In this document: positions 7,259 through 29,475 of the stretch, in pieces
How positions within the stretch are numbered: position 1 is the stretch's first letter
Layout of the letters: every line of letters starts with the position of its first letter
NCBI GenBank assembly: GCA_030427835.1
Contig: JAUICN010000003.1
Span: 164,965-228,964 of the forward strand
Source: Polyangia bacterium
GTDB lineage: Bacteria; Myxococcota_A; Polyangia; Polyangiales; JAUICN01
DNA length: 64,000 nt
Reading direction: 5' to 3'
The notes under the pieces: model-generated
Database searches by the model: none
What the model was told of the DNA's origin: nothing
What the model saw: only the letters and a program-made list of their open reading frames with translations
Made by a program: the position numbers and the translations under genes

Positions 7259-10006
7259 CTAAAAGTACTGATCGAAGGAAGCGTAGACTGTGACGGGGGG
7301 GCGTTCGTTTCCGCGTAGGCCGTCGCTGCCGAGCCCATTGGGATCCCGGGTAAGCGGTATGCCCAGGTCCACGGAAAGCACCCCGGGTTGCACTCCCCCG
7401 TACTCGAAGTGGAATCGCAACCCGCCGCCGGCCTCCACCACACCACGGGTGCCACCCACGCCCACCGCGTCAAACACCGCACCGCCACCCACAAACGTGG
7501 CCCACTGCAGCTCCCTTAACCACACCAGGTGAAACACGTTGCCCGCCAGGTCACGCACAAAGGTAAACCGGTGCTCCACGGAACCGTAGGCACGGCCGCG
7601 GCCCACAAACTCATCCGTCTGCACACTGCGCAGCAAAAACGGATCCCCCAAACGCATCTGCTCTGCTGCCAGCGCGTCGCCCAACGTCCAACCCAGGCCC
7701 CCCACAAACACCCAACTGTGCCAAAGGCCCATGGGCCGTGTCAGGTTGCCGCGCACAGAACCGGAACCGGTCAACAACAACGAGCCGTCATCCCGAAATA
7801 CGGGGCCCAGTCGCCCACGCGCACTCCAGTAACCGCCCATGCGCGGATCGATGGAAAACACGCGGGTGTCCATTCCCACAGAGCCCTGCACCGAGGGCCT
7901 CCATCCCCCCTGGGCCTGATCCGCAAAACTGGAATGCAACCGGTCCAATCGAACTCCGGTGGACAAGAACCCCTGTCGACTGTTGTTGTGACGTTTGGGG
8001 CCCCACCCCGAAAGCAGGGACACCGAACCACCCGAAGCTGCCACATCGTGGAACAGGGCAAAGGCATATCCACGCTCCAGGTTGAAACGCCTGCGCATGG
8101 CAAAATCCAGAAACCCGGTCACCTGCCCCTCCGACACAAACGCGTTCAAGCCAAACCCACGCAACAGGGGTGGCCGCCAGGCGTGGGCCATGGCGTCGTC
8201 ACCCCGGGGGTGGCCCGCGGTGAGAGACGCATCCTGCTCCCTGGCTCCCCTTGGATCCACCATCACATCCTTCGAATCCAGGGCAGAGGTTTGCAAACTC
8301 GCAAGTGAAAACCCTGGCCCTTCACCGTCCCAGAGGTGCCCTCCCCCAGCCCCATCCACGCGAATCTCCACAGGTTCGTGACGAGGCAACCCCTGCCGTT
8401 CCACCTGAAGCGCGCCACCGACCCCACGCAACTGGTAGTTCACGGGTCGCAATGGGATCTCCAGCCACTCCTGCACATGGCTTGCAAGTCGCGGGTCCGC
8501 GGCGTGCAGAGCTTCTCGAGCCCGCTCCCCCGCCAACCATTGGCGCTGCACCTCCAACCAACGGGCCCCGGGTAACCCATCCCGGGCGCGTACCATCACA
8601 GCCCGTCCATGGGCACGCCTGCGCCAGGCCCGATCCGGGTCCTCCCCAAATACATCCAACGCCCCCGGCGCCCCTTGCATCACATCCGCAAAGGGCACCT
8701 GCGGCGCGTACAGCAACTGGTCCACCGCCGGGTGAAACGAGGCAAAGCGAACCAGATCCCCTGCCGACTTCGCATCACCATCGGTTTCGTGGTCCAACCA
8801 CAGCGACGCACGCAACTCCGATGCCCAGCCCACATCCCCAGCAGGTTCGCCCTGAAACGTTTCCTCCATCACACGGGTGTACTGAGCCAAGCGAATGGCC
8901 CTTCCGTGCAACTCAAGGGCCGCCCTCACAGGAAAAATCTGAAACGCCCGGTCCGACACCGCCACAAGGCCAGGCATCGATGCCGCAAGCTCCAACCGGG
9001 AAGGCACCTGAACAAACACGGGGGGCGCCACCGCCCCTCGCTCCAAATCCACAGGGCTTCCCCCATCCGAAAGCACACGGCGCGCCGTTGCCATTTCCTT
9101 TCGTACCCGTGTCACCGTTTTTCGACGCAACGGATCACGCAACCCGTCACCATCCAAATCCCCCATGGGAGTGGCGGACCAGAAGACTCCCGTTGGGCCG
9201 TCACCCGGGGTGCCGTCTGTTTTCAATGGGTGGGGCCACCAACGGCCTGCCGCAAACAATGGCGCAAATGGGCCCGTCACCTCCACATGCCCATCACCCT
9301 GGGCCCGCTTCCCACCCACAAGCCATTCCAACCCACGGGGGGCAAACACCCGCACCCGGTGGGGTACCCGAAATCGCCACCGATCCCCGTTGACCACCAG
9401 CGGGTACCAGGGTGCCCCCAGGGTCAGCTGCCCCCTTGCCACCCCATGACGCCCGTACCGCTGTGGCACCTGAAGCACAACGGTGTAACGCAACTCCGCC
9501 TGGACCGTGGACCGCTCCCCACCGTTTTCTACCGGAGGATCAAAGCAAACCCTACGACCAAACTCGGAGCCCACCGAACCCTGCCGCACCCCATCCAGAT
9601 CCACGGGTTGCCCGTTCCAACGCATGGACCGAAACCGCAGCGCTCCGAGCGACACCCCCCTGGGGAACACCCAACGAAAGTTCTGCTCGTTCAATTGGGA
9701 GGGCACCCGTTCCACCCGCGAGAAATGGCTCCACAGACACAGCGGTACCCCTGCGCCCTGGGAGGCCGGCCCCGACTCTCCTTGCCACTGCAATTCTTGC
9801 CGCCTGAGGATGACCGACACATGGGCCACCAGTTCCCGGGGAGCCCCTTGCCCGTCCACCGCAATCCGGTATCCCAGGGGCTCCCAGCCCCCATTGAACA
9901 CCGCCCTCTCCTGCGCCGCAACCGGCACCCCATTGAAGAAACATGGCAGCAGGGCACCCATCGCTAACATCCACAGCCCGACCCAACGGTGTTGCTGGCG
10001 CCTCAC
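7259..10006 (-). CDS. outer-membrane beta-barrel protein, Omp85/surface-antigen-like
   Basis: A protein of about 915 residues that I place only loosely. From a GTG at 10006 it begins with a positively charged stretch, a hydrophobic segment and an Ala-rich cleavage site (PVAAQE), so it is exported. The last 300 residues alternate polar and aromatic residues in amphipathic strands and end in an aromatic residue (SFDQYF), as outer-membrane barrels of the Omp85/two-partner secretion group do. No POTRA domains and no HExxH motif were recognised in the middle part. A longer open frame reaches 10135, but it would place 43 low-complexity residues over a repeat array, so the internal GTG is preferred. 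Substrate and partner are unknown. Confidence 0.7.
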   Translation of the reverse strand: MRRQQHRWVGLWMLAMGALLPCFFNGVPVAAQERAVFNGGWEPLGYRIAVDGQGAPRELVAHVSVILRRQELQWQGESGPASQGAGVPLCLWSHFSRVERVPSQLNEQNFRWVFPRGVSLGALRFRSMRWNGQPVDLDGVRQGSVGSEFGRRVCFDPPVENGGERSTVQAELRYTVVLQVPQRYGRHGVARGQLTLGAPWYPLVVNGDRWRFRVPHRVRVFAPRGLEWLVGGKRAQGDGHVEVTGPFAPLFAAGRWWPHPLKTDGTPGDGPTGVFWSATPMGDLDGDGLRDPLRRKTVTRVRKEMATARRVLSDGGSPVDLERGAVAPPVFVQVPSRLELAASMPGLVAVSDRAFQIFPVRAALELHGRAIRLAQYTRVMEETFQGEPAGDVGWASELRASLWLDHETDGDAKSAGDLVRFASFHPAVDQLLYAPQVPFADVMQGAPGALDVFGEDPDRAWRRRAHGRAVMVRARDGLPGARWLEVQRQWLAGERAREALHAADPRLASHVQEWLEIPLRPVNYQLRGVGGALQVERQGLPRHEPVEIRVDGAGGGHLWDGEGPGFSLASLQTSALDSKDVMVDPRGAREQDASLTAGHPRGDDAMAHAWRPPLLRGFGLNAFVSEGQVTGFLDFAMRRRFNLERGYAFALFHDVAASGGSVSLLSGWGPKRHNNSRQGFLSTGVRLDRLHSSFADQAQGGWRPSVQGSVGMDTRVFSIDPRMGGYWSARGRLGPVFRDDGSLLLTGSGSVRGNLTRPMGLWHSWVFVGGLGWTLGDALAAEQMRLGDPFLLRSVQTDEFVGRGRAYGSVEHRFTFVRDLAGNVFHLVWLRELQWATFVGGGAVFDAVGVGGTRGVVEAGGGLRFHFEYGGVQPGVLSVDLGIPLTRDPNGLGSDGLRGNERPPVTVYASFDQYF

Positions 10007-10055
10007 GCGAATGCTACCCGCTCCCTGTTTCTGCCCGACGCCGCCCCTCGGGACA

Positions 10056-10130
10056 GGATTGCGCAGCACACCACAGCACGGGATGCTACTGCGTAGGAAG
10101 CCACGGCGCAGAACGTCACGGCACAGGACA
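10056..10130. repeat. degenerate tandem repeat, 15-bp period, five units
   Basis: Units in register are GGATTGCGCAGCACA, CCACAGCACGGGATG, CTACTGCGTAGGAAG, CCACGGCGCAGAACG and TCACGGCACAGGACA, approximating YYACNGCRYAGGANG. They lie between the divergent starts of the barrel-protein gene (10006, minus) and the small membrane-protein gene (10169, plus), where both promoters should be. The array is either a multi-site operator or one of the 15-bp microrepeats that recur in this window. Confidence 0.65.
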
Positions 10131-19184: not shown

Positions 19185-19967
19185 GTGCTCATCGACAGCC
19201 ACTGCCACATCACAAGTCGGCCCTACACCAAGGACCGCGCCCAGGTGGTCCGTGCCGCGCGGCAGGCCGGCGTTGAAGGCTGCCTGTCTGTGGTCTGTGT
19301 GAACGCGAATCTCCTCGCCGCAAAACAGGCGCGAAGCATCGTTGCCGCCATGCCCCCGGGCTTTACCGTCAAGGAAGCCCTGGGCATTCACCCCCACGAC
19401 GCGAAGGACGCCACCCCACCGGTACGGGAGTACATCCGCCAATGTGCCGAGGACCCCACCACCGTCGCCGTGGGGGAAGCGGGCCTCGATTACCACTACA
19501 ACCATTCCCCCAAACACCAGCAGATCGAAGTCTTCCAGTGGCACGTGGCCCTGGCCCAGAAGGTCCACAAACCCCTGATCGTGCACACCCGAAACGCTGC
19601 GGCCGACACGTTAAGCGTTCTCCAACAGGCCTACAGGGCGGGTGTGGGGGGCGTCATCCACTGCTTCAGCGAGGACGTGCCCTTTGCTCGAAGGGCCCTG
19701 GATCTAGGGTTTTACGTGTCCTTCAGTGGGATCCTCACCTTTCCCAAGAGCCACAGCATCCAGGCTGCGGCCCGGTTTGCCCCCCCCAACCGAATCCTCG
19801 TGGAGACGGACGCCCCCTACCTCGCTCCCATTCCCCACCGGGGCAAACGCAATGAACCCGCCCATGTACGGCACACCGCCCGCCACCTGGCACGCCTCAA
19901 ACATTGGGATTTTGCCCATTTGGACCAGGTCCAACGAAACAACGTGCGAGAGCTGTTCGGCTTCTGA
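19185..19967 (+). CDS. tatD: TatD family metal-dependent DNase
   Basis: A 260-residue TIM-barrel metallohydrolase. Metal ligands are seen in DSHCHI (residues 4-8), VGEAGLDYHY (the Glu ligand), PLIVHTRNA, GVIHCFSED and ILVETDAPYLAP. This pattern belongs to TatD/YcfH-type 3'-5' exonucleases involved in DNA repair or tRNA processing. The start is a GTG at 19185 with GGAGAA ten bases upstream. The holB-metG-tatD order matches the common bacterial arrangement of tmk/holB and ycfH (TatD) near metG, which supports the identification. Confidence 0.92.
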   Translation: MLIDSHCHITSRPYTKDRAQVVRAARQAGVEGCLSVVCVNANLLAAKQARSIVAAMPPGFTVKEALGIHPHDAKDATPPVREYIRQCAEDPTTVAVGEAGLDYHYNHSPKHQQIEVFQWHVALAQKVHKPLIVHTRNAAADTLSVLQQAYRAGVGGVIHCFSEDVPFARRALDLGFYVSFSGILTFPKSHSIQAAARFAPPNRILVETDAPYLAPIPHRGKRNEPAHVRHTARHLARLKHWDFAHLDQVQRNNVRELFGF

Positions 19968-20067: not shown

Positions 20068-20733
20068 ATGAGTAAGAATGTGGGCCTCATCGGCCGAAAA
20101 CTAGGCAGCACACAGATTTTCCAGGAAGACGGCACAGTCGTTCCTGTGACCGTTCTTGAAATGGGCCCCTGCACAGTGGTCAACCGCAAGACCAAGGAAC
20201 GTGACGGCTACACCGCCATCAGCCTCGGGTTTGGTAAGGCCAATCTCAAAAACACCCCCAAGCCAGAAAAGGGCATCTACGAGAGCCTTGGCGTGGAAAC
20301 TCCTGAAACCGTGACCGAGTTTCGGGTCGAGTCAGATACTCTGGAGAAGTTCGAGATTGGCCAGGAAGTCCGTGTGAACGACATCTTTGCCGAGGGCATC
20401 ACCGTGGACGTCACCGGAACCTCCAAGGGTCGCGGTTTCACGGGTGTCATGAAACGCCACAACTTTCACGGTGCAGGCACCGCCACCCACGGTACCCACG
20501 AGTACAAGCGCCACGGTGGCTCCATCGGTATGAACATGACCCCCGGGCGAACCCTCAAGGGAACCAAAATGCCGGGCCAGCACGGGTCCAAGCGCACCAC
20601 CACCCTCAACCTGAAGGTGGCCAAGATTCTTGAGGACAAAAACCTTCTGCTCATTGCGGGATCGGTGCCCGGGCCCAACCAGGGCACCATCACCGTGCGC
20701 AAGGCCATCAAGGGCCGCCCCCCACAAGCCTAG
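20068..20733 (+). CDS. rplC: 50S ribosomal protein L3, stand-alone gene
   Basis: A 221-residue bacterial L3 of normal length. The signature THEYKRHGGSIGMNMTPGR followed by KGTKMPGQHGSKRTTT is complete, as is the N-terminal GLIGRKLGSTQIF. L3 binds 23S rRNA early and shapes the peptidyl-transferase region. In most bacteria rplC is the second gene of the S10 operon. Here no ribosomal genes adjoin it, and it has its own promoter and leader. The neighbour is rlmE, another large-subunit assembly gene. Whether a second copy exists elsewhere cannot be seen. GGAG lies five bases before the ATG. Confidence 0.95.
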   Translation: MSKNVGLIGRKLGSTQIFQEDGTVVPVTVLEMGPCTVVNRKTKERDGYTAISLGFGKANLKNTPKPEKGIYESLGVETPETVTEFRVESDTLEKFEIGQEVRVNDIFAEGITVDVTGTSKGRGFTGVMKRHNFHGAGTATHGTHEYKRHGGSIGMNMTPGRTLKGTKMPGQHGSKRTTTLNLKVAKILEDKNLLLIAGSVPGPNQGTITVRKAIKGRPPQA

Positions 20734-20808: not shown

Positions 20809-21429
20809 ATGAGTCGCCCACGCCACTCCGATCATTTTACCCGCCGTGCCAAGCGCTCGGGTTACCCCGCCCGGTCCATCTTCAAGCTCGAGGAGATCCA
20901 TCGAAGGTTCTCCCTCTTCCGCACAGGCCAAAAGGTCCTGGACTTGGGCGCCGCACCGGGTTCCTGGTCTCTTTTTGCCGCCCAACAGGTCGGCCCCTCG
21001 GGTCGCGTCACGGCGGTCGACATACAACCCATTTCCCAGGCATTCCCCTCCCACGTAAGGGTCATCCAAGGGGATGCCTTCGCGTTTCCGTTACAGACCG
21101 AAGCCACAGGGGACACGCCCAGCCAAGACAACGCCCAAGACGTGTTCGATCTTGTGTTGAGCGACATGGCCCCGAGTACCACCGGGCACCGAAACACCGA
21201 TCAGGCCAGGAGCATGGGCCTGGCCACCCGCGCCTTTGAGGTCGCCCAACGCACCCTGCTCCCGGGAGGATCGTTTGTGGTGAAGCTCTTCGATGGCCCA
21301 GACGTTCCAGAGCTTCAGCAACAACTTCGAAAAGCATTCAAAACCGTCAAACGCACCCGGCCCGAAGCCACTCGAAATATCAGTTCCGAATTCTTCTGGG
21401 TCGCGACGGGATTTCAGAGTGAACCGTAG
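20809..21429 (+). CDS. rlmE: 23S rRNA (uridine-2'-O)-methyltransferase RlmE (RrmJ/FtsJ)
   Basis: A 206-residue SAM-dependent methyltransferase. The SAM site is VLDLGAAPGSWS (43-54) and the catalytic tetrad is Lys26 (IFKLEE), Asp119 (LSDMAP), Lys159 (FVVKLFDG) and Glu194 (SSEFFW). It methylates U2552 of 23S rRNA late in large-subunit assembly. It follows rplC after 75 bases with a stem-loop between. Its last 50 bases overlap the 3' end of the opposite-strand glnD homologue. Confidence 0.94.
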   Translation: MSRPRHSDHFTRRAKRSGYPARSIFKLEEIHRRFSLFRTGQKVLDLGAAPGSWSLFAAQQVGPSGRVTAVDIQPISQAFPSHVRVIQGDAFAFPLQTEATGDTPSQDNAQDVFDLVLSDMAPSTTGHRNTDQARSMGLATRAFEVAQRTLLPGGSFVVKLFDGPDVPELQQQLRKAFKTVKRTRPEATRNISSEFFWVATGFQSEP

Positions 21430-24127
21430 GCAGCTCTTCGCGGCATACCTTCAATAGCTCCTCCCGCAGGGCCGCCATCCCCTCCGGGCCTGATTCCCGG
21501 CGGCTTCCCTTGCGCGGACCTTCCGAAGCCTGGTCCTCTTGCAGGTAAAAAATCTCCACGGCACGATCCCCCTCCGTATTCACACGGGCCAGGTGAATGG
21601 AAAACCCGTGGTCAAAAAGCACCCGTGTGGCCATGGCAAGTAACCCTCGACGATCCGCCGCGGCCAGTTCCAAAATCGTGAACTGGCTCGAAGAACTTCC
21701 GTCCACGGTTACCTCCGCCTCAGAAGAAGTCACCGGGCGGCGGGCCCATCGATCTCCAGCATTGCCCAGTTGATCCACCGCGTCGCGCCAGTATTCCTCA
21801 TCCTCCATCAAACGATGCAACCGAACGGCCAATCGATCCATCCAACGATCCTCAAGCACCCAACCCGCATCGGGTTTCGCAATCTGAAACAGATCAAGCA
21901 CCCCCGAGCGCCCGTCCCAATCGAACGAGTAAATCTCGGCGCCCACCACGTCGATCCCCTCCAGAGCCATGCCGGTGGCGAAGCGCGACAGCAGGCCTGG
22001 GCGATCCTCTGCCACCACCGCAAGGGTGCCCACCTCGTTAGAAGCATCCCAATGGAGCAACGGTTTGCCATGACCGGGCGCTCCCACCAGTGCCATGTGT
22101 GCCTTCATTTCTTCAAAGGATCGGCCCACAAAATATCGATCGGGAAGGGAGGGCACCACCTCCTGCGCAAGCTGGGGCAGGTTCTCCGGAAGACCCGGAT
22201 CCCCTGAATTCAACCAGGACAGCAGCTTCTCCCGGGCCCCGTCCGAAACCCCCGCTATGGCACCCCGACTGGTGAGCTCCTGCAACGCCCTTTGGTAAAG
22301 TCCGTTGTAGAGCTGAAGCTTCCAGGCCGTCACGTCCGCCGGGTTGGTCGCCATGGCAATGGCCAAGTCCAACAGAAAAAGATCGTGAAGCTTGCGTCGA
22401 GTTTGTGCAAAATCAGCCACCTCTTGCACCACCTCCGGATCGTGCACATCCCGCATTCCACTGGTTCGCAACAGGGAACCCCGACGGGCAACCAGCCATT
22501 GGGTATGGGCCGCAGACCTCTCGTCCATGCCAAGCCGAACCGCGATCCGATGGGCAATATTCCCCCGCTTCTCTTCCACCCCACGACGAAACAGGGAGGG
22601 AGAGATATCGTGCAACAGGGCCGCCAACACCACCGGTGCAAGATTCACCACTTCCGCTGCGCACCGACTGGCCACATCAAACTGCTTCAGGGCATCTCCC
22701 CGACGCAACGAAAGCAGAAACTCCACTGCACGCACCGCTTGAACATCCGCAGTGTACAGGTGAAACGCATCGTAGCGCACACGCCCCATCAGTTTCTCAA
22801 ACTCGCCCACAAACACCTGAATCAAACCAAGGCTGTGAAGCTCAGCCACCATGGATCGCCCCCGTGGCCCAATAGAACGGGTGCTGCCAATCAACCTCAG
22901 GAACGTTCGCCCAAGCTCGGCCAGGTGTTCGGGTGCCCCCCCACGGCCCACCTCGATCGCCAAACCTGGCACCTCGCGTGCAATCCGATCCTTGGAGTGG
23001 GGATGAAACTGAAGGCCCCACCGCAACAGCCCTTCCAGGTAAGCGAGAACCGTTTCCAAACCCAACACCTCCGTGGGAGGCGCCGCGAACACCAACTGGT
23101 CGCCGAACTTTTTCAACTCGGGCGAAAGGGAACGGGCAGGAACCCGCCAACGCTTGGGTTGCAACTCCGCACGTTCCATCAGCCGTTGGCAGGTCCTGTC
23201 CACCACGGTGGCCGCGCCGTAGTAGTTGCGCATGAAACGCTCCACGCCCAACTCCTGACCCTGGTCCTCAAACCCACAAAGAACCGCCACCTCTTCCTGG
23301 TCCGCAAAGGTAAGGCGGTCATGGGCACGCCCCGCACGCAAATGCAACCACGACCGGACCCGCCACAGAAAGTCCACAGAGCGCTCGTACTCCTGCCACT
23401 CCCGGCGCAACAGGGCACCGTTGCGCACAAGGCTCCTGGGGTCACTGTCCGCCCAACGAAACCCGGTGGTGTCCGCATCGCGAACGCCGCCCGGGCCGTA
23501 TTTCACATCCGGTTCCAACAAAAACGGTGTACTGCCATAACGTCGGTGCCTGTCCCGAACCGATTCCTGCAAGGCAGAAAGCATGGTCGGGCAATGGCGA
23601 ACCACCCAAGTCGACCGAAACCGTTCGATAGGCGCAACCAGTTCCCGGTTCCAACCCATCGGGTAGAGGTCCCACAACATGGTCGCCGTAACCACATCCT
23701 CACGGGCCAGTTGGCAAAGTTCGTCCGCGGTATGCACCGAATGCCCCACGCGCACGCCCGCATCCCAGAGCGGGTACAGCACCGACTGAAACAGTTCCTC
23801 ATGGGCAGGACTCCCCCCCCCCTCACCGGAACACAAAAACAGGAGATCCAAATCACTGTGGGGTGCCACCCTTCCCCGACCCAGGCCCCCCACCACCACA
23901 AAGCACAACTGGGACGCCCTAGGATCCTCGGGTGGCAACACCATGTTGGCAATACTGCTCAAAACACCCCGAATGGCGCCCCCGAAGTGCTGTGACAGAT
24001 CCCGTGCGCCCTGACCCTGCTCCAGCCCCTGGAGAAAACGACGGCGATGCAACTCCAAATAGGACGCACACTTCTCAGAGAAATGCGTCAATTCCGAGGA
24101 GCCGGCCTTTTCCACACCACTCACCAC
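21380..24127 (-). CDS. glnD: GlnD-like PII uridylyltransferase with eroded HD (uridylyl-removing) domain
   Basis: A 915-residue protein with the GlnD domain order: nucleotidyltransferase (about 70-200; GGLGRGRVAPHSDLDLLFL with Asp92/Asp94), linker (YGPGGVRDAD), HD domain (about 455-600), then two ACT domains that sense glutamine (LAVVAEDRPGLLSRFATGM and ILELAAADRRGLLAMATRV). GlnD adds UMP to PII proteins in nitrogen limitation, and its HD domain removes it. Here the transferase motif is intact, but most HD metal ligands are replaced: YTVDEH reads YTADVQ, GDH is lost, WLVxxH reads WLVARR, and VAD reads LAI. Only the HD doublet (506-507) remains. A G10 tract follows the catalytic motif. The start is probably GTG 24127. 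Confidence 0.87.
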   Translation of the reverse strand: MVSGVEKAGSSELTHFSEKCASYLELHRRRFLQGLEQGQGARDLSQHFGGAIRGVLSSIANMVLPPEDPRASQLCFVVVGGLGRGRVAPHSDLDLLFLCSGEGGGSPAHEELFQSVLYPLWDAGVRVGHSVHTADELCQLAREDVVTATMLWDLYPMGWNRELVAPIERFRSTWVVRHCPTMLSALQESVRDRHRRYGSTPFLLEPDVKYGPGGVRDADTTGFRWADSDPRSLVRNGALLRREWQEYERSVDFLWRVRSWLHLRAGRAHDRLTFADQEEVAVLCGFEDQGQELGVERFMRNYYGAATVVDRTCQRLMERAELQPKRWRVPARSLSPELKKFGDQLVFAAPPTEVLGLETVLAYLEGLLRWGLQFHPHSKDRIAREVPGLAIEVGRGGAPEHLAELGRTFLRLIGSTRSIGPRGRSMVAELHSLGLIQVFVGEFEKLMGRVRYDAFHLYTADVQAVRAVEFLLSLRRGDALKQFDVASRCAAEVVNLAPVVLAALLHDISPSLFRRGVEEKRGNIAHRIAVRLGMDERSAAHTQWLVARRGSLLRTSGMRDVHDPEVVQEVADFAQTRRKLHDLFLLDLAIAMATNPADVTAWKLQLYNGLYQRALQELTSRGAIAGVSDGAREKLLSWLNSGDPGLPENLPQLAQEVVPSLPDRYFVGRSFEEMKAHMALVGAPGHGKPLLHWDASNEVGTLAVVAEDRPGLLSRFATGMALEGIDVVGAEIYSFDWDGRSGVLDLFQIAKPDAGWVLEDRWMDRLAVRLHRLMEDEEYWRDAVDQLGNAGDRWARRPVTSSEAEVTVDGSSSSQFTILELAAADRRGLLAMATRVLFDHGFSIHLARVNTEGDRAVEIFYLQEDQASEGPRKGSRRESGPEGMAALREELLKVCREELPTVHSEIPSRPRRIRN
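23813..23822 (-). repeat. homopolymer G10 tract within glnD
   Basis: Ten consecutive C on the plus strand, read as G10 in the gene, code for Gly residues 103-105 directly after the DLDLLFL catalytic motif. Tracts of this length can slip during replication. Gain or loss of one base would truncate the protein before the rest of the transferase domain. It is by far the longest G/C run noticed in this window. Confidence 0.8.
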
Positions 24128-24137
24128 AGCCCCAGTA

Positions 24138-24153
24138 TGGCCAGCCTATTGCA
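24138..24153 (+). promoter_or_regulatory. sigma54-like -24/-12 element
   Basis: TGGCCAGCCTATTGCA matches the sigma54 consensus TGGCACGNNNNTTGCA except at two positions, and GG and GC are spaced by exactly 10 bases. It lies just upstream of glnD (which runs the other way) and 118 bases before the PEGA-domain gene. Given the nitrogen-regulatory neighbour it is plausible, but chance matches are common. Confidence 0.3.
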
Positions 24154-24270
24154 CAATTCCAGCCCAAGGTGACGCTCCCGGTGTTTACCCGAAGAACCCT
24201 AGGAAAAAACGAAGACAAAGACACGGGACAGGGAGACCGGTACTTTGCAGCTTGCGCCACCCCCACTACA

Positions 24271-25446
24271 ATGGGTCCTGTCGTCCACCGGAAAAACACC
24301 GTGCCCAACTCCCCCCCAGATAGCGATTCTCCCCCATCGCCCATTCCAGAAAACACCCAGCCCCACTGGCGTCCCACAGGCGAACACCCATCTGCCGAAC
24401 ACCCTTCCAGCGGAACTGCGAACACCGGCGGCGCAAACAGGGGGACGGAGCAGACCCCTAAAGGTCCGTCCCCAGGGCCCAAGAATCTTGATGAACTCGC
24501 CCACAGCATTCGTCCCTCCTGGCAACCTCCTCCAGGCACGGCCCCTTTGGAAGCTGCCGGCGCTGAACGAATCGCAGTCGAAAAAGTCGCGGGCGAACAC
24601 AACCTCGGCAAACCCATGCCCCCCAGGGCAGACCTGCCCGTTTCACCAGAACCAACGCGGCCCGATTCCACTTTTCCACGGGCTAAGAGTTCCCCAAAAA
24701 TGTGGATTGCCGCCCTGTTACTGCTTCTCGTGGCAGGTTTAGTCATCGCCCAGTTTTTGCAGAGCCCGCCCGCAACCCACGGGACAGGTCACCCTACGAA
24801 TGAAAAAAGCGACCTGAAGGCAGATCCAATAGGGAAGGTGGAAACATCAGGCACGGGTCCACTAGACGAAGCACAACCGATAGAAGAGCAACCGGCAGAG
24901 ACAATAGAAGAGCAACTGGCAGAGGCAGAGGAGCGGCGTGTGGAAATGCAACCAGCAGAACGCGCGTCGTCTGCTGCTCGCACGAACTCCGCCCCGGCAG
25001 TTTCACCGCCACGGGAGGTCGCTCCCCAGACGCAATCGGCCACAACACAGGTTGAACCCACAGAAACACGGCAACCCGCTGCACCAGCGAGGGGTCAAAC
25101 CGCTGCCTTTCCACAGGCGATCACCCATCAGATTCAACTGAGCACCACACCTCCAGATGCATATCTCTCAGTCAATGGGCGTCGGGTCAACAACCCCTAC
25201 GGGACGCAGCTTCCACGGGGCACAGTGTTCATTCGTGCCCAAAAAGAAGGCTACCATCCCGCTTCCATGCGCTTTGATCTTACCGAAGACCGCACACTCA
25301 ATATTCAACTCCGATCGAAAACCCCACCTGCACCGCCCCCAGAAACAACGCCGGAACCCAGGCCACCCAACACGACCCACCAGGGCACCCAGGGAACTTC
25401 GCCGCCGGCTGAACCAAGCACACTCGTCACCGACAATCCATACTGA
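24271..25446 (+). CDS. single-pass membrane protein with PEGA domain
   Basis: A protein of about 391 residues. A Pro/Ser-rich cytoplasmic region (1-145) is followed by a transmembrane helix (about 147-167, MWIAALLLLLVAGLVIAQFL), an Ala/Glu/Pro-rich linker and a C-terminal PEGA domain (about 288-355; LSTTPPDAYLSVNGRRVNN and VFIRAQKEGYHPASM). PEGA domains occur at the surface side of Myxococcota kinases and S-layer-type proteins; no kinase part is present. A 24-bp duplication (24880-24927) gives IEEQPAET-IEEQLAEA. The frame is open upstream to 23932, but there it overlaps glnD. ATG 24271 and GTG 24301 are the likeliest starts. Confidence 0.65.
   Translation: MGPVVHRKNTVPNSPPDSDSPPSPIPENTQPHWRPTGEHPSAEHPSSGTANTGGANRGTEQTPKGPSPGPKNLDELAHSIRPSWQPPPGTAPLEAAGAERIAVEKVAGEHNLGKPMPPRADLPVSPEPTRPDSTFPRAKSSPKMWIAALLLLLVAGLVIAQFLQSPPATHGTGHPTNEKSDLKADPIGKVETSGTGPLDEAQPIEEQPAETIEEQLAEAEERRVEMQPAERASSAARTNSAPAVSPPREVAPQTQSATTQVEPTETRQPAAPARGQTAAFPQAITHQIQLSTTPPDAYLSVNGRRVNNPYGTQLPRGTVFIRAQKEGYHPASMRFDLTEDRTLNIQLRSKTPPAPPPETTPEPRPPNTTHQGTQGTSPPAEPSTLVTDNPY
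24880..24927. repeat. 24-bp in-frame tandem duplication
   Basis: ATAGAAGAGCAACCGGCAGAGACA is repeated at once with two changes. It adds eight residues to the low-complexity Glu/Gln linker between the membrane helix and the PEGA domain, so it changes linker length without affecting the folded part. Confidence 0.8.
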
Positions 25447-25490: not shown

Positions 25491-28400
25491 CTAAGAGGTT
25501 CGGTGATCCCACCAAAGGTTCGAAAGCTTCTCCTCCGCGGAGTTCTGCTTCAACCGTTCCTTCAAGTGAACGAAGTCTACCCGATCCAAATCCTGATCCT
25601 GGTTGGAACAGATGTAGATCATGCGCTCCGTCCCATCTTCATCCACCACCCGTTGCAAGCACTGAGCACAGATCGCTTTCATCATGCACTGCATGGGTGA
25701 GTTGATACTTCCGATCGCCCTATGGCAGGGCTTAAGGTAGGGCTTGAGCACTCCGCTGCGGGCGTGTTTCACGGCATTCATCATGCCATCCGAACCGATG
25801 GCAATCACCCGATCCACATCGCGCAAATCCACCAACACCTCACCCAGCTCCCCCTTCTGGTGAGCCACCATCGCCTCCACGATATTCCCACGGAAGTAAC
25901 GGTCTGAGGTCCGCTGGGGTTCAATCGCATCACCCGCGTCGCTGGTCCAAATCACTTGCTCGCTGTGTGCTTCGATCATGTCCCGTTTGAATAGGGTGGA
26001 ACTGTGGCGATACCCCGCAAAGTAGATGGAGCGGGATCCCCGTTCCTGAAGGGCCTTCGCAATGGAGAACAGCACCGCATTGCCGAGCCCGCCCCCCGCT
26101 AGCAACACGGTTTCCCCCTCCGGAATTTCTGTGGGTTCACCCGTGGGGCCCATCAGCACCACAGGATCTCCTGGTTGCAAATGGGCAAGCATCCTGGAGG
26201 ACGTTCCCATCTCCAATGCAATCGTGGACAGCAGCCCGGCACCAGGTTCGGTGGACGCCCCCGTGAGCGCAAGGCCCTCGGTCACCAATGGCACATCATT
26301 CAATCGGCGCGCATCCCGCTCAAAGGTCTGAAAACGATAGAACTGTCCGGGCCGAAACTTCCGGGCAGCCAGGGGAGCTTTCACCACAACTTCCACAATC
26401 CCAGGGGCCAGTCGTTGCACCCGATCCACCGTGGCCTGCAAGTTTTGGGAAAGTGTATCGGCGAACCGTTGCCACTGCGCTTTTGGTGCGGCCCGGTCCA
26501 AGGCGCCCTCATGATCAAACAGGGAGACCACCTGGCCAAAACCATCCTTGGCACTGGCCATGGCCTTCACCACACTGCCCGCATACTTGGGGTGATTGTC
26601 CCCATAGAAGCTCACAAAACGCCCATCACGGTGGTAGTCCGTCAGTACGCCCGAAGCATCCTCACTGGCAACCAGTTCAAGAGATCCATCGCCCGAGCGC
26701 ACCGCCCGGTGCGGCACATAGTAGCCATCTTCGCCAAGGTGAAGCGACCCTGGGTGCTCCTCCTCGTAACCCGTATTCGGCCCTGTTCCTGCGGCCACCG
26801 CAACCGTTCGCGCCGGCAGCCGCACCTGGGAACCTGTCTTACGGGGGCGGCCCTCTTCGTTCAGTTCCATTCGGTCGAACGTCACGGCTTCCACAGCGCC
26901 CCACTTGTCCGCATGGGCCTCCACGGGCGACATGAGCTCCACGTACTCAATCCCCTCTTCCAGGGACTTCTCCACTTCTTCGTGGTTCAAACGATAGGCC
27001 GGTGAACCTTCCAATCGCCGACGGTACGCAATCCGCACGCCCCCCCATTGACGAACCAGGGATTGCAAATCCGGTTCCTCGCCGGCCTGCGATGCACGTT
27101 GGCGTTCACCAAGGCATGCCGCCCCGTGGGACCGCATCTCGTCCACCACCTCCAGCTCCTCCTCCGAAAAGCTTTCGCGCAACGATTCCTCTCCCTGGGC
27201 CTGCGCCAGGGCATCGTACCAACGGGCAACCTTCTCCACCTGCACCACGTAGTAGGCCGCAAGCTCCGTCGCCGTATCAATGGCGGTCAACCCCCCACCG
27301 ATCACCACCGCAGGCAAACGCACCTGGAGGTTCGCCAGGGACTCCCGCTTGTAGGCCCCCGTCAGCTGCAGCCCCATCAGTAGGTCGCTGGCCTTTCGGA
27401 TCCCACGCATGAGATTGCCCTTCATGGGAATCAGGGTGGGTTTGCCCGCACCGGCCGCGATCCCCACATGATCAAACCCCATGGCCCACGCGTCCTCAAG
27501 GGTGACTGTCCCCCCAAAACGAACGCCTCCGTGCGCCCGAAAGTGCGGTTGCCGAAGAAGCATCAAATAGATCACCGAAAGGAACGTTTTGTCCCATCGC
27601 ACGGTGATGCCGTATTCGCTTACCCCACCAAACCCCAATGTTGTCCTGGACTCCAGGGGCTCCTGCAACTGTCGAAAATCGTACACCGGAGTCACGTGGC
27701 CGTTCTCATCGGCAAGCAGTGAACCCGGCAGGGGTTCAAGTTTCAGCCCATCCACGCCCACCACCCCAAACCCTTCATTGAGCAAGTGGTGTGCAAGCGT
27801 GTAGCCAGCCGGCCCCATCCCCACCACCATCACATGGTGGCCGTGGTAAGCCCGTGGCACCGGTCGCGTAACGTTCAGCGGGTTCCAACGGGTGAGCAGG
27901 GAGTAAATCTCAAATCCCCAGGGCAACTCAAGCACGTCCACCAACGCTTGGGTTTCCACGGCGGGAATATTGACCGGTTCCTGTACCTGGTAGACGCAAG
28001 CCTTCATGCAATCATTGCAAATTCTGTGGCCTGTCCCAGCCGCCATGGGGTTGTCCAGCGTGATGGTCGCAAGGGAACCAATAAACTCTCCTGCCTTGCG
28101 CAGCAGGTGCATTTCGCTGATTTTCTCGTAGAGCGGGCAACCGTTGAGATCCACGCCCAGGGGGTTCTTCTTGATCTCCCCTTGCTTGCTACGAAGCCCC
28201 TTGCTGCAGGAATCCTTGTCCCGGCTATGGCAATACAAGCAATAGTCCACCTGCCCCTCAATGTGCCGGTGAGACATACGGGTATCGGTCAGGGCAAAGG
28301 GTTCGACCCTCTGGCGACGGTGCTCCGCACCCTCAAGCGCCTCAGGCAAATCTTCCCGATGCCTTCGCAGGGGCACGAGCGCATCAAACTTCTGTTTTTT

Positions 28401-29273
28401 AGGTTGGAACAGGGAAGCCCAACGATCCTCGGCAGGCCAATGGGATTGGCGATCCCATTCCAACACCAACGCACGTTCCATGGCCTCTAATAGAACGGTC
28501 GCCCAATCCCCGAAGGCCACACAGTTCTCAGCCGTCACGCAGTCCCCTACACTTCCCAACCTCCCGGGGGAATCGTCAGGTGGGTTGCTTTCAGCAGTCT
28601 GCACCTTCCCCGGCCCGGCCCCCACAGAACGGTCTGGGATCCCCCGTTCCAAGACTGCAAGAATTTCCTCGGGCAACGCATCCTTGGCCTGCCCTACCCA
28701 TTGCTCAAACTTGGGTTCCCAGGAAGCTCCCCCTGCCTTGGCCATTTTGCGGGCCACGGTTTCCACTTCCAGCAGTCGCAGAACCGCAATAGAGGCGCAC
28801 AGCTCCCTATCATTCTTGAGCGATGCATCGCGGCCCTCCGGCACCCCAAGCACACCCACAACCCTGTTCCAAACCTGCTGCGCTTCGTCATCGCTGCCCG
28901 CCCACCCCTTCAGGGCCCGGCGCTTGTGTACCCTAGGCTTTACGAACTTCTTGAGTGCCTCGAGCACGGGGCCATGGGTACCGTGAGCCCTGCGACGGAG
29001 CTCCACTTCCTGCTCCACCCCAAAAAGCTTGGCCACGAAGGCCCCCACCCAGGGTCCCAGGTCAAGCACCAGGGCCGAACGGTCCCCGTCGGAAAGCCCC
29101 TCTGGGGTGAGCGATTGGACCCTCGCCTGCTCAAGGTGAGCGCAGGCCTCAGGTGCGTTTTCCGCAAGCCATTCCAAAAAACGCCCGTGCAAGCGCGACA
29201 GCCCCTGCACATCATAAAGGGAGTCAATGGAAAATCCCTCAAATCCGAGGGTAAGCGTCGGTTCCGAGGACAT
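25491..29273 (-). CDS. large FAD / Fe-S NAD(P)H oxidoreductase (GltD-like plus PyrK/FNR-like fusion)
   Basis: A 1260-residue protein. Residues 1-330 match nothing I recognise. Two cysteine clusters follow (CLYCHSRDKDSC near 345 and CNDCMKAC near 420, with CPLYE between), like the N-terminal Fe-S region of glutamate synthase small subunits. Next is a GltD-like FAD/NADPH module (VMVVGMGPAGYTLAHHLL near 482 and VVIGGGLTAIDTATEL near 690). From about 965 there is a ferredoxin-reductase module as in PyrK/NfnA (RPGQFYRFQTF, then LLAGGGLGNAVLFSIAKAL). A final cluster (CMMKAICAQC, then CSNQDQD) resembles the PyrK 2Fe-2S site. The order recalls NfnA-NfnB fused in one chain. Electron donor and acceptor are unknown. 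A start at 29324 is also open. Confidence 0.8.
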   Translation of the reverse strand: MSSEPTLTLGFEGFSIDSLYDVQGLSRLHGRFLEWLAENAPEACAHLEQARVQSLTPEGLSDGDRSALVLDLGPWVGAFVAKLFGVEQEVELRRRAHGTHGPVLEALKKFVKPRVHKRRALKGWAGSDDEAQQVWNRVVGVLGVPEGRDASLKNDRELCASIAVLRLLEVETVARKMAKAGGASWEPKFEQWVGQAKDALPEEILAVLERGIPDRSVGAGPGKVQTAESNPPDDSPGRLGSVGDCVTAENCVAFGDWATVLLEAMERALVLEWDRQSHWPAEDRWASLFQPKKQKFDALVPLRRHREDLPEALEGAEHRRQRVEPFALTDTRMSHRHIEGQVDYCLYCHSRDKDSCSKGLRSKQGEIKKNPLGVDLNGCPLYEKISEMHLLRKAGEFIGSLATITLDNPMAAGTGHRICNDCMKACVYQVQEPVNIPAVETQALVDVLELPWGFEIYSLLTRWNPLNVTRPVPRAYHGHHVMVVGMGPAGYTLAHHLLNEGFGVVGVDGLKLEPLPGSLLADENGHVTPVYDFRQLQEPLESRTTLGFGGVSEYGITVRWDKTFLSVIYLMLLRQPHFRAHGGVRFGGTVTLEDAWAMGFDHVGIAAGAGKPTLIPMKGNLMRGIRKASDLLMGLQLTGAYKRESLANLQVRLPAVVIGGGLTAIDTATELAAYYVVQVEKVARWYDALAQAQGEESLRESFSEEELEVVDEMRSHGAACLGERQRASQAGEEPDLQSLVRQWGGVRIAYRRRLEGSPAYRLNHEEVEKSLEEGIEYVELMSPVEAHADKWGAVEAVTFDRMELNEEGRPRKTGSQVRLPARTVAVAAGTGPNTGYEEEHPGSLHLGEDGYYVPHRAVRSGDGSLELVASEDASGVLTDYHRDGRFVSFYGDNHPKYAGSVVKAMASAKDGFGQVVSLFDHEGALDRAAPKAQWQRFADTLSQNLQATVDRVQRLAPGIVEVVVKAPLAARKFRPGQFYRFQTFERDARRLNDVPLVTEGLALTGASTEPGAGLLSTIALEMGTSSRMLAHLQPGDPVVLMGPTGEPTEIPEGETVLLAGGGLGNAVLFSIAKALQERGSRSIYFAGYRHSSTLFKRDMIEAHSEQVIWTSDAGDAIEPQRTSDRYFRGNIVEAMVAHQKGELGEVLVDLRDVDRVIAIGSDGMMNAVKHARSGVLKPYLKPCHRAIGSINSPMQCMMKAICAQCLQRVVDEDGTERMIYICSNQDQDLDRVDFVHLKERLKQNSAEEKLSNLWWDHRTS

Positions 29274-29475
29274 ACGACAAAAGGAGCCCGATTGTGGCCC
29301 TGGACCGCCCAAGGTCAAGTCCAAATCCTGCCCCCAGCAGCCTGGATGGGCTTCTTGTCACAAGCGAAACCCAAACCAGAAAAACCAGGTTACCAGAGCC
29401 CAAGCCCACAGAACCCAGCGCCGTACCCAAAAGGGCGCGTGTATTTTCAATCCACCCTGCTACCGTCCCGAGCCC

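Follow-up and report, generated by a model that had tools for sequence, protein, structure and literature searches.

GlnD is the textbook two-way switch of bacterial nitrogen sensing. What becomes of such a switch when one of its two sites has been stripped of the residues presumed to work it? The question is raised by a gene in the window, the 64,000-nucleotide stretch of DNA from a Polyangia bacterium that was analysed here, whose product (Table 1) seems equipped for the forward reaction. It resembles the bifunctional uridylyltransferase/uridylyl-removing (UTase/UR) enzymes of E. coli and R. rubrum in its order of domains (nucleotidyltransferase or NT, PF08335, HD, ACT), in its transferase motif and in having a PII partner with Tyr51; unlike them it has lost four of six HD ligands and the lysine of HDxxK.

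A GlnD homologue by its domains

By profile the protein is a clear homologue, yet it lies under the curated line for the name PII uridylyltransferase: the TIGR01693 match is nearly full length and, at 405.8 bits, does not reach the equivalog cut-off of 519.4. PF08335 (GlnD_UR_UTase) is present at 100.9 bits against a cut-off of 21. Identity to other GlnDs of the same order is only 28–34%; the protein is probably a GlnD ortholog, though of its place in the tree we are unsure. The transferase motif, GGLGRGRVAPHSDLDLL, conforms to GGxGRx(6)SDxD, and at the catalytic G, R, S and D positions checked the protein is identical to E. coli GlnD and to nearly all intact relatives. Transferase invariants have been lost at 4–5 of 32–34 positions, a toll similar to that in E. 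coli or in control relatives. As for the ACT region, the repeat at residues 817–861 scores above the Pfam cut-off, the first repeat is weakly matched (E 0.015) with strands and a helix predicted there in an AlphaFold2 model, and seven of eight invariant positions are kept. Alignment and Pfam profiles alike bear out the impression of the first-pass annotation that the transferase motif and ACT region are intact. The model of the whole protein has a mean pLDDT of 80.8 and an all-helical HD region; a fold search with it returned GlnE and archaeal CCA-enzyme matches only, which are uninformative for the HD site, and a solved GlnD structure, sought by sequence, was not found.

Table 1. Positions in the window of the glnD homologue and of the sites discussed
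Feature	Positions	Strand	Basis
GlnD homologue	21380..24127	(-)	915 aa, GTG start; PF08335 8e-29, PF01842 ACT 1.1e-11, TIGR01693 405.8 bits
Nucleotidyltransferase motif GGLGRGRVAPHSDLD (residues 80-94)	23846..23890	(-)	alignment with E. coli and relatives
GlnD_UR_UTase region (PF08335, residues 185-316)	23180..23575	(-)	Pfam profile match
HD domain (residues 433-621); most ligands gone, fold kept	22265..22831	(-)	ungapped HMM alignment, AlphaFold2
Q463 = E. coli H471 position	22739..22741	(-)	alignment, HMM
H506-D507, HD doublet kept = E. coli H514/D515	22607..22612	(-)	alignment, HMM
P510 = E. coli K518 position, HDxxK lysine	22598..22600	(-)	intact-sequence comparison, HMM
V517 = E. coli H524 position (GDH)	22577..22579	(-)	HMM
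R549 = E. coli H556 position (WLVRQH)	22481..22483	(-)	alignment, HMM
I590 = E. coli D597 position (VAD)	22358..22360	(-)	alignment, HMM
ACT region (residues ~701-866)	21530..22027	(-)	PF01842 at 817-861, weak PF13291 at 701-735

Loss of the HD ligands

Six HD positions, reading H, HD, H, H, D, are ones that we take to be metal ligands, by analogy with the HD superfamily at large and from their invariance in this set. With K-12 GlnD (from NC_000913) as the E. coli reference in a MAFFT alignment with relatives, four of the six prove to be lost and the H506-D507 doublet alone is kept, as the first-pass annotation had claimed; its numbering of Ile590 at the VAD aspartate was also correct. The lysine of HDxxK, invariant among intact GlnDs, is a proline here. 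Might a more careful alignment restore the ligands at shifted positions, the outcome that had been named as fatal to the claim? An HMM built from only the 77 GlnDs having all six ligands (Myxococcota plus E. coli) agrees with the MAFFT result and restored none: it aligns to residues 433–621 without a gap, at 144.6 bits and a mean accuracy of 0.97, so a shifted register does not bring the ligands back. One caveat to dismissing a register shift is D587, which is one helical turn before I590 at a position where intact sequences have threonine and which could in principle approach the HD site.

Nor is this what long-branch drift alone would do. Of the seven ligand and lysine positions the window GlnD has changed five; two other GlnDs with branches of about its length (L164 and L166), like E. 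coli GlnD, have changed none. At other invariant HD positions 8 of 24 are changed in the window GlnD and 3 of 24 in L164 and L166. Since these equally divergent proteins kept all ligands, drift alone is ruled out. The pattern strongly suggests that UR activity has been lost from the window GlnD, although what remains, H506-D507 with D587 nearby, may form a weak or altered metal site.

Recurrence among myxobacterial GlnDs

The survey of relatives proposed with the original claim was made with related myxobacterial MAGs, in an aligned set of 114 GlnDs, 77 of them having all six ligands (11 added sequences, mostly of the same class and phylum, are included). At least one ligand is lost in the other 37, all of which fall inside one 49-row part of a tree built without the HD columns. 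As judged from the alignment, HD ligand loss is recurrent in the window's order and no oddity of one protein. A large group (f4) has mostly HHS or HHA...Q...I/V at the ligand positions, in the dead sequences of family f9 H524 has become proline and D515 serine, glutamate or glycine, and in L005 and L036 D597 to valine is the sole ligand change. Because these last two keep all but D597, and L032 keeps D597 itself, the ancestor of these two groups was intact and losses number at least two, if regain is disallowed. The best trees require 3–4 changes; the AU test does not reject a tree in which all dead sequences form one clade (p 0.22).

Like the window GlnD, L006, L010-12, L015-17, L019, L020, L023-27, L031, L032 and others have lost ligands and kept the transferase. 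Most of these dead relatives, however, keep H471 and have lost D515, H556 and D597, whereas the window GlnD keeps D515 and has lost H471, which points to a different route of erosion. The other dead rows have changed 65% of the seven ligand and lysine positions on average, as against 18% of the other HD positions invariant in intact sequences. Positions changed in the majority of rows number 5 of 7 and 4 of 24 respectively (Fisher p=0.012, indicative since the rows are related). GlnD proteins with a UR-dead site would be a variant new within a known enzyme family and recurrent in the order; in the open-access literature we found no paper describing a GlnD with a dead UR site, nor any on the GlnD of Myxococcota.

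Selection on the HD domain

Measures of selection come from the relatives' sequences and do not cover the window's own lineage, which lacks a close relative among the genomes compared. The ratio of HD to NT protein distance is 2.07 in a dead clade of 16 rows versus about 0.75 in intact groups, with a weaker shift, to 0.94, in the f9 dead sequences. No domain of the 16-row clade is more constrained than the transferase, and HD evolves about twice as fast as it, at a rate close to that of the linker. There dN/dS is 0.036 for NT and 0.071 for HD (HD about 0.05–0.07), against 0.113 and 0.082 in intact pairs, so that HD is relaxed relative to NT while purifying selection persists. With its dN/dS still low, the HD domain of that clade is not decaying as junk; it is the extra constraint of catalysis that has gone.

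Could the HD site instead still work, weakly or differently, with H506, D507 and a shifted D587 holding one metal for slow removal of UMP or for cleavage of some other nucleotide? The purifying selection just described, the closeness of D587 to the lost aspartate and the doublet that most dead relatives lack would all accord with this. However, nothing in register replaces the three missing histidines and the HDxxK lysine, and relatives have eroded further, from HD to HS, HA, HG or HE, which argues that the site is dispensable; on balance we consider a working site unlikely.

A GlnD that may write but not erase

UR activity resides in the HD domain of R. rubrum GlnD and UTase activity in its N-terminal domain (PMC3480911), and a review locates the two activities of GlnD in the same way (PMC4285133). 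With the activities in different domains, a GlnD deprived of its HD site should still be a transferase, controlled by glutamine via ACT. What we infer for the window GlnD is loss of UR and retention of transferase activity, and the earlier proposal that it adds UMP without removing it fits a conserved transferase site, an eroded UR site and a PII that keeps Tyr51. The reading we favour, and hold to be probable though well short of assured, is of a GlnD with a dead HD site, a kept transferase and a glutamine-sensing ACT region, which would modify PII at Tyr51 and be incapable of removing the group.

At low glutamine such an enzyme would uridylylate (or otherwise nucleotidylylate) PII at Tyr51; at high glutamine, sensed via the ACT region, its transferase would stop, the GlnD itself being unable to take the group off. 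Persistence of the HD fold suggests that the domain carries a signal or holds PII: folded, selected and catalytically dead, it would probably link ACT sensing to the transferase and/or hold PII. PII might be reset as it is diluted and newly made, or a separate hydrolase might do the work; some relatives could use their additional intact GlnD. The broader proposition, that PII uridylylation has repeatedly evolved to be one-way at GlnD with the dead HD domain allosteric and reset left to an unrecognised enzyme or to dilution only, we would put at even odds.

Versatility of GlnD chemistry on Tyr51 of PII has a precedent. Actinobacterial GlnD adenylylates GlnK (PMC4285133); there a different nucleotide is transferred, whereas in the window GlnD it is the 'eraser' site that is lost. 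A lineage repeatedly losing the off-reaction yet keeping the tyrosine target raises the question of how PII is reset. Dead-HD GlnDs are natural candidates for UTase-only enzymes in which to study control of the transferase by glutamine and by the HD domain, and the annotation 'bifunctional UTase/UR' may be wrong for some proteins.

PII, GlnE and the resetting of PII

The window's genome (3.3 Mb, 98% complete) is the sole member of its family among those compared, and no second GlnD was found in it. Its PII, on contig C27, reads YRGSAYIVDF with Tyr51 present; glnB (L256 8288-8641) sits immediately ahead of a type I glnA (8695-10119), and downstream of this region is a 175-bp tandem repeat of 2.7 copies, 97% identical (L256:12700-13168, G000 C27). 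Of the 18 dead-HD genomes 17, among them the window's, have a canonical PII with Tyr46 and Tyr51; the remaining one (G038) has a weak PII-like match only. Tyr51 could be kept for the binding of targets such as AmtB or GlnE and not for modification; one genome without a GlnD match, G022, has a PII without Tyr51, a single case with a divergent PII. GlnE of the window's genome has both nucleotidyltransferase motifs (GSDIDL and GSDLDL). GlnE was found in 9 of the 18 dead-HD genomes, which means that these genomes do not share one target cascade, and GlnE loss as the cause of HD death shows no correspondence.

That another enzyme must deuridylylate PII, as first proposed, goes further than these genomes show. 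Three dead-HD genomes have extra intact-HD GlnDs (one dead and one intact copy each in G008 and G015, one dead and two intact in G028), and neither the window's genome nor most dead-HD genomes have any. The extra copies in G028, G015 and G008 are L148, L154/L258, L149 and L163; the intact L148, L149 and L163 cluster together in another part of the tree than the dead copies. Those neighbouring genes that were scanned around the extra intact copies gave no clue.

A specific candidate for a separate HD hydrolase is a 'headless' CCA-transferase-like HD protein of 343 aa (G000 C4:32724-33752; L275:1048-2088), roughly 48–67% identical across the order. It is in all 18 dead-HD genomes, its H/HD/H/D residues are intact in the copy of the window's genome, and it is absent from family f2 and has no strong match in G007, where the HD domain of GlnD is intact. 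That contrast amounts, however, to about two independent absences; the protein is also in most genomes with intact GlnD and in two without a full-length GlnD match (G013 and G022), which makes it ancestral, with some other role, and we found no operon that joins it to glnB or glnD. Since almost the whole order has it, we treat it as no more than a lead, and that deuridylylation has passed to it or to another such hydrolase strikes us as quite improbable.

Equally improbable is a drift of the whole enzyme from the PII pathway, with the transferase lost too or a non-PII substrate adopted: the very long branch (1.5–2.5 changes per site), the altered transferase invariants and the TIGR01693 shortfall would suit it, but the catalytic transferase motif is intact, in the dead clade of 16 rows the transferase evolves most slowly of all parts, and PII keeps Tyr51.

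Neighbouring genes

A 504-aa ORF with a PEGA domain (23932-25446, plus strand) is encoded on the strand opposite to glnD, and its called start falls within the 5' end of that gene. Also near glnD is a gene for a 1277-aa protein (25491-29324, minus strand) with a glutamate-synthase-beta-like pyridine nucleotide oxidoreductase core and a C-terminus like that of DHODH electron transfer proteins; it is PRK06567-like, with a score below the PRK06567 cut-off. On the other side rplC (20068-20733, plus strand), for ribosomal protein L3, is the sole copy found in the genome and is on another contig than the gene for L5 (C17:5572); it stands alone between a TatD-like ORF (19185-19967) and an RlmE-like ORF (20809-21429), both named by eye.
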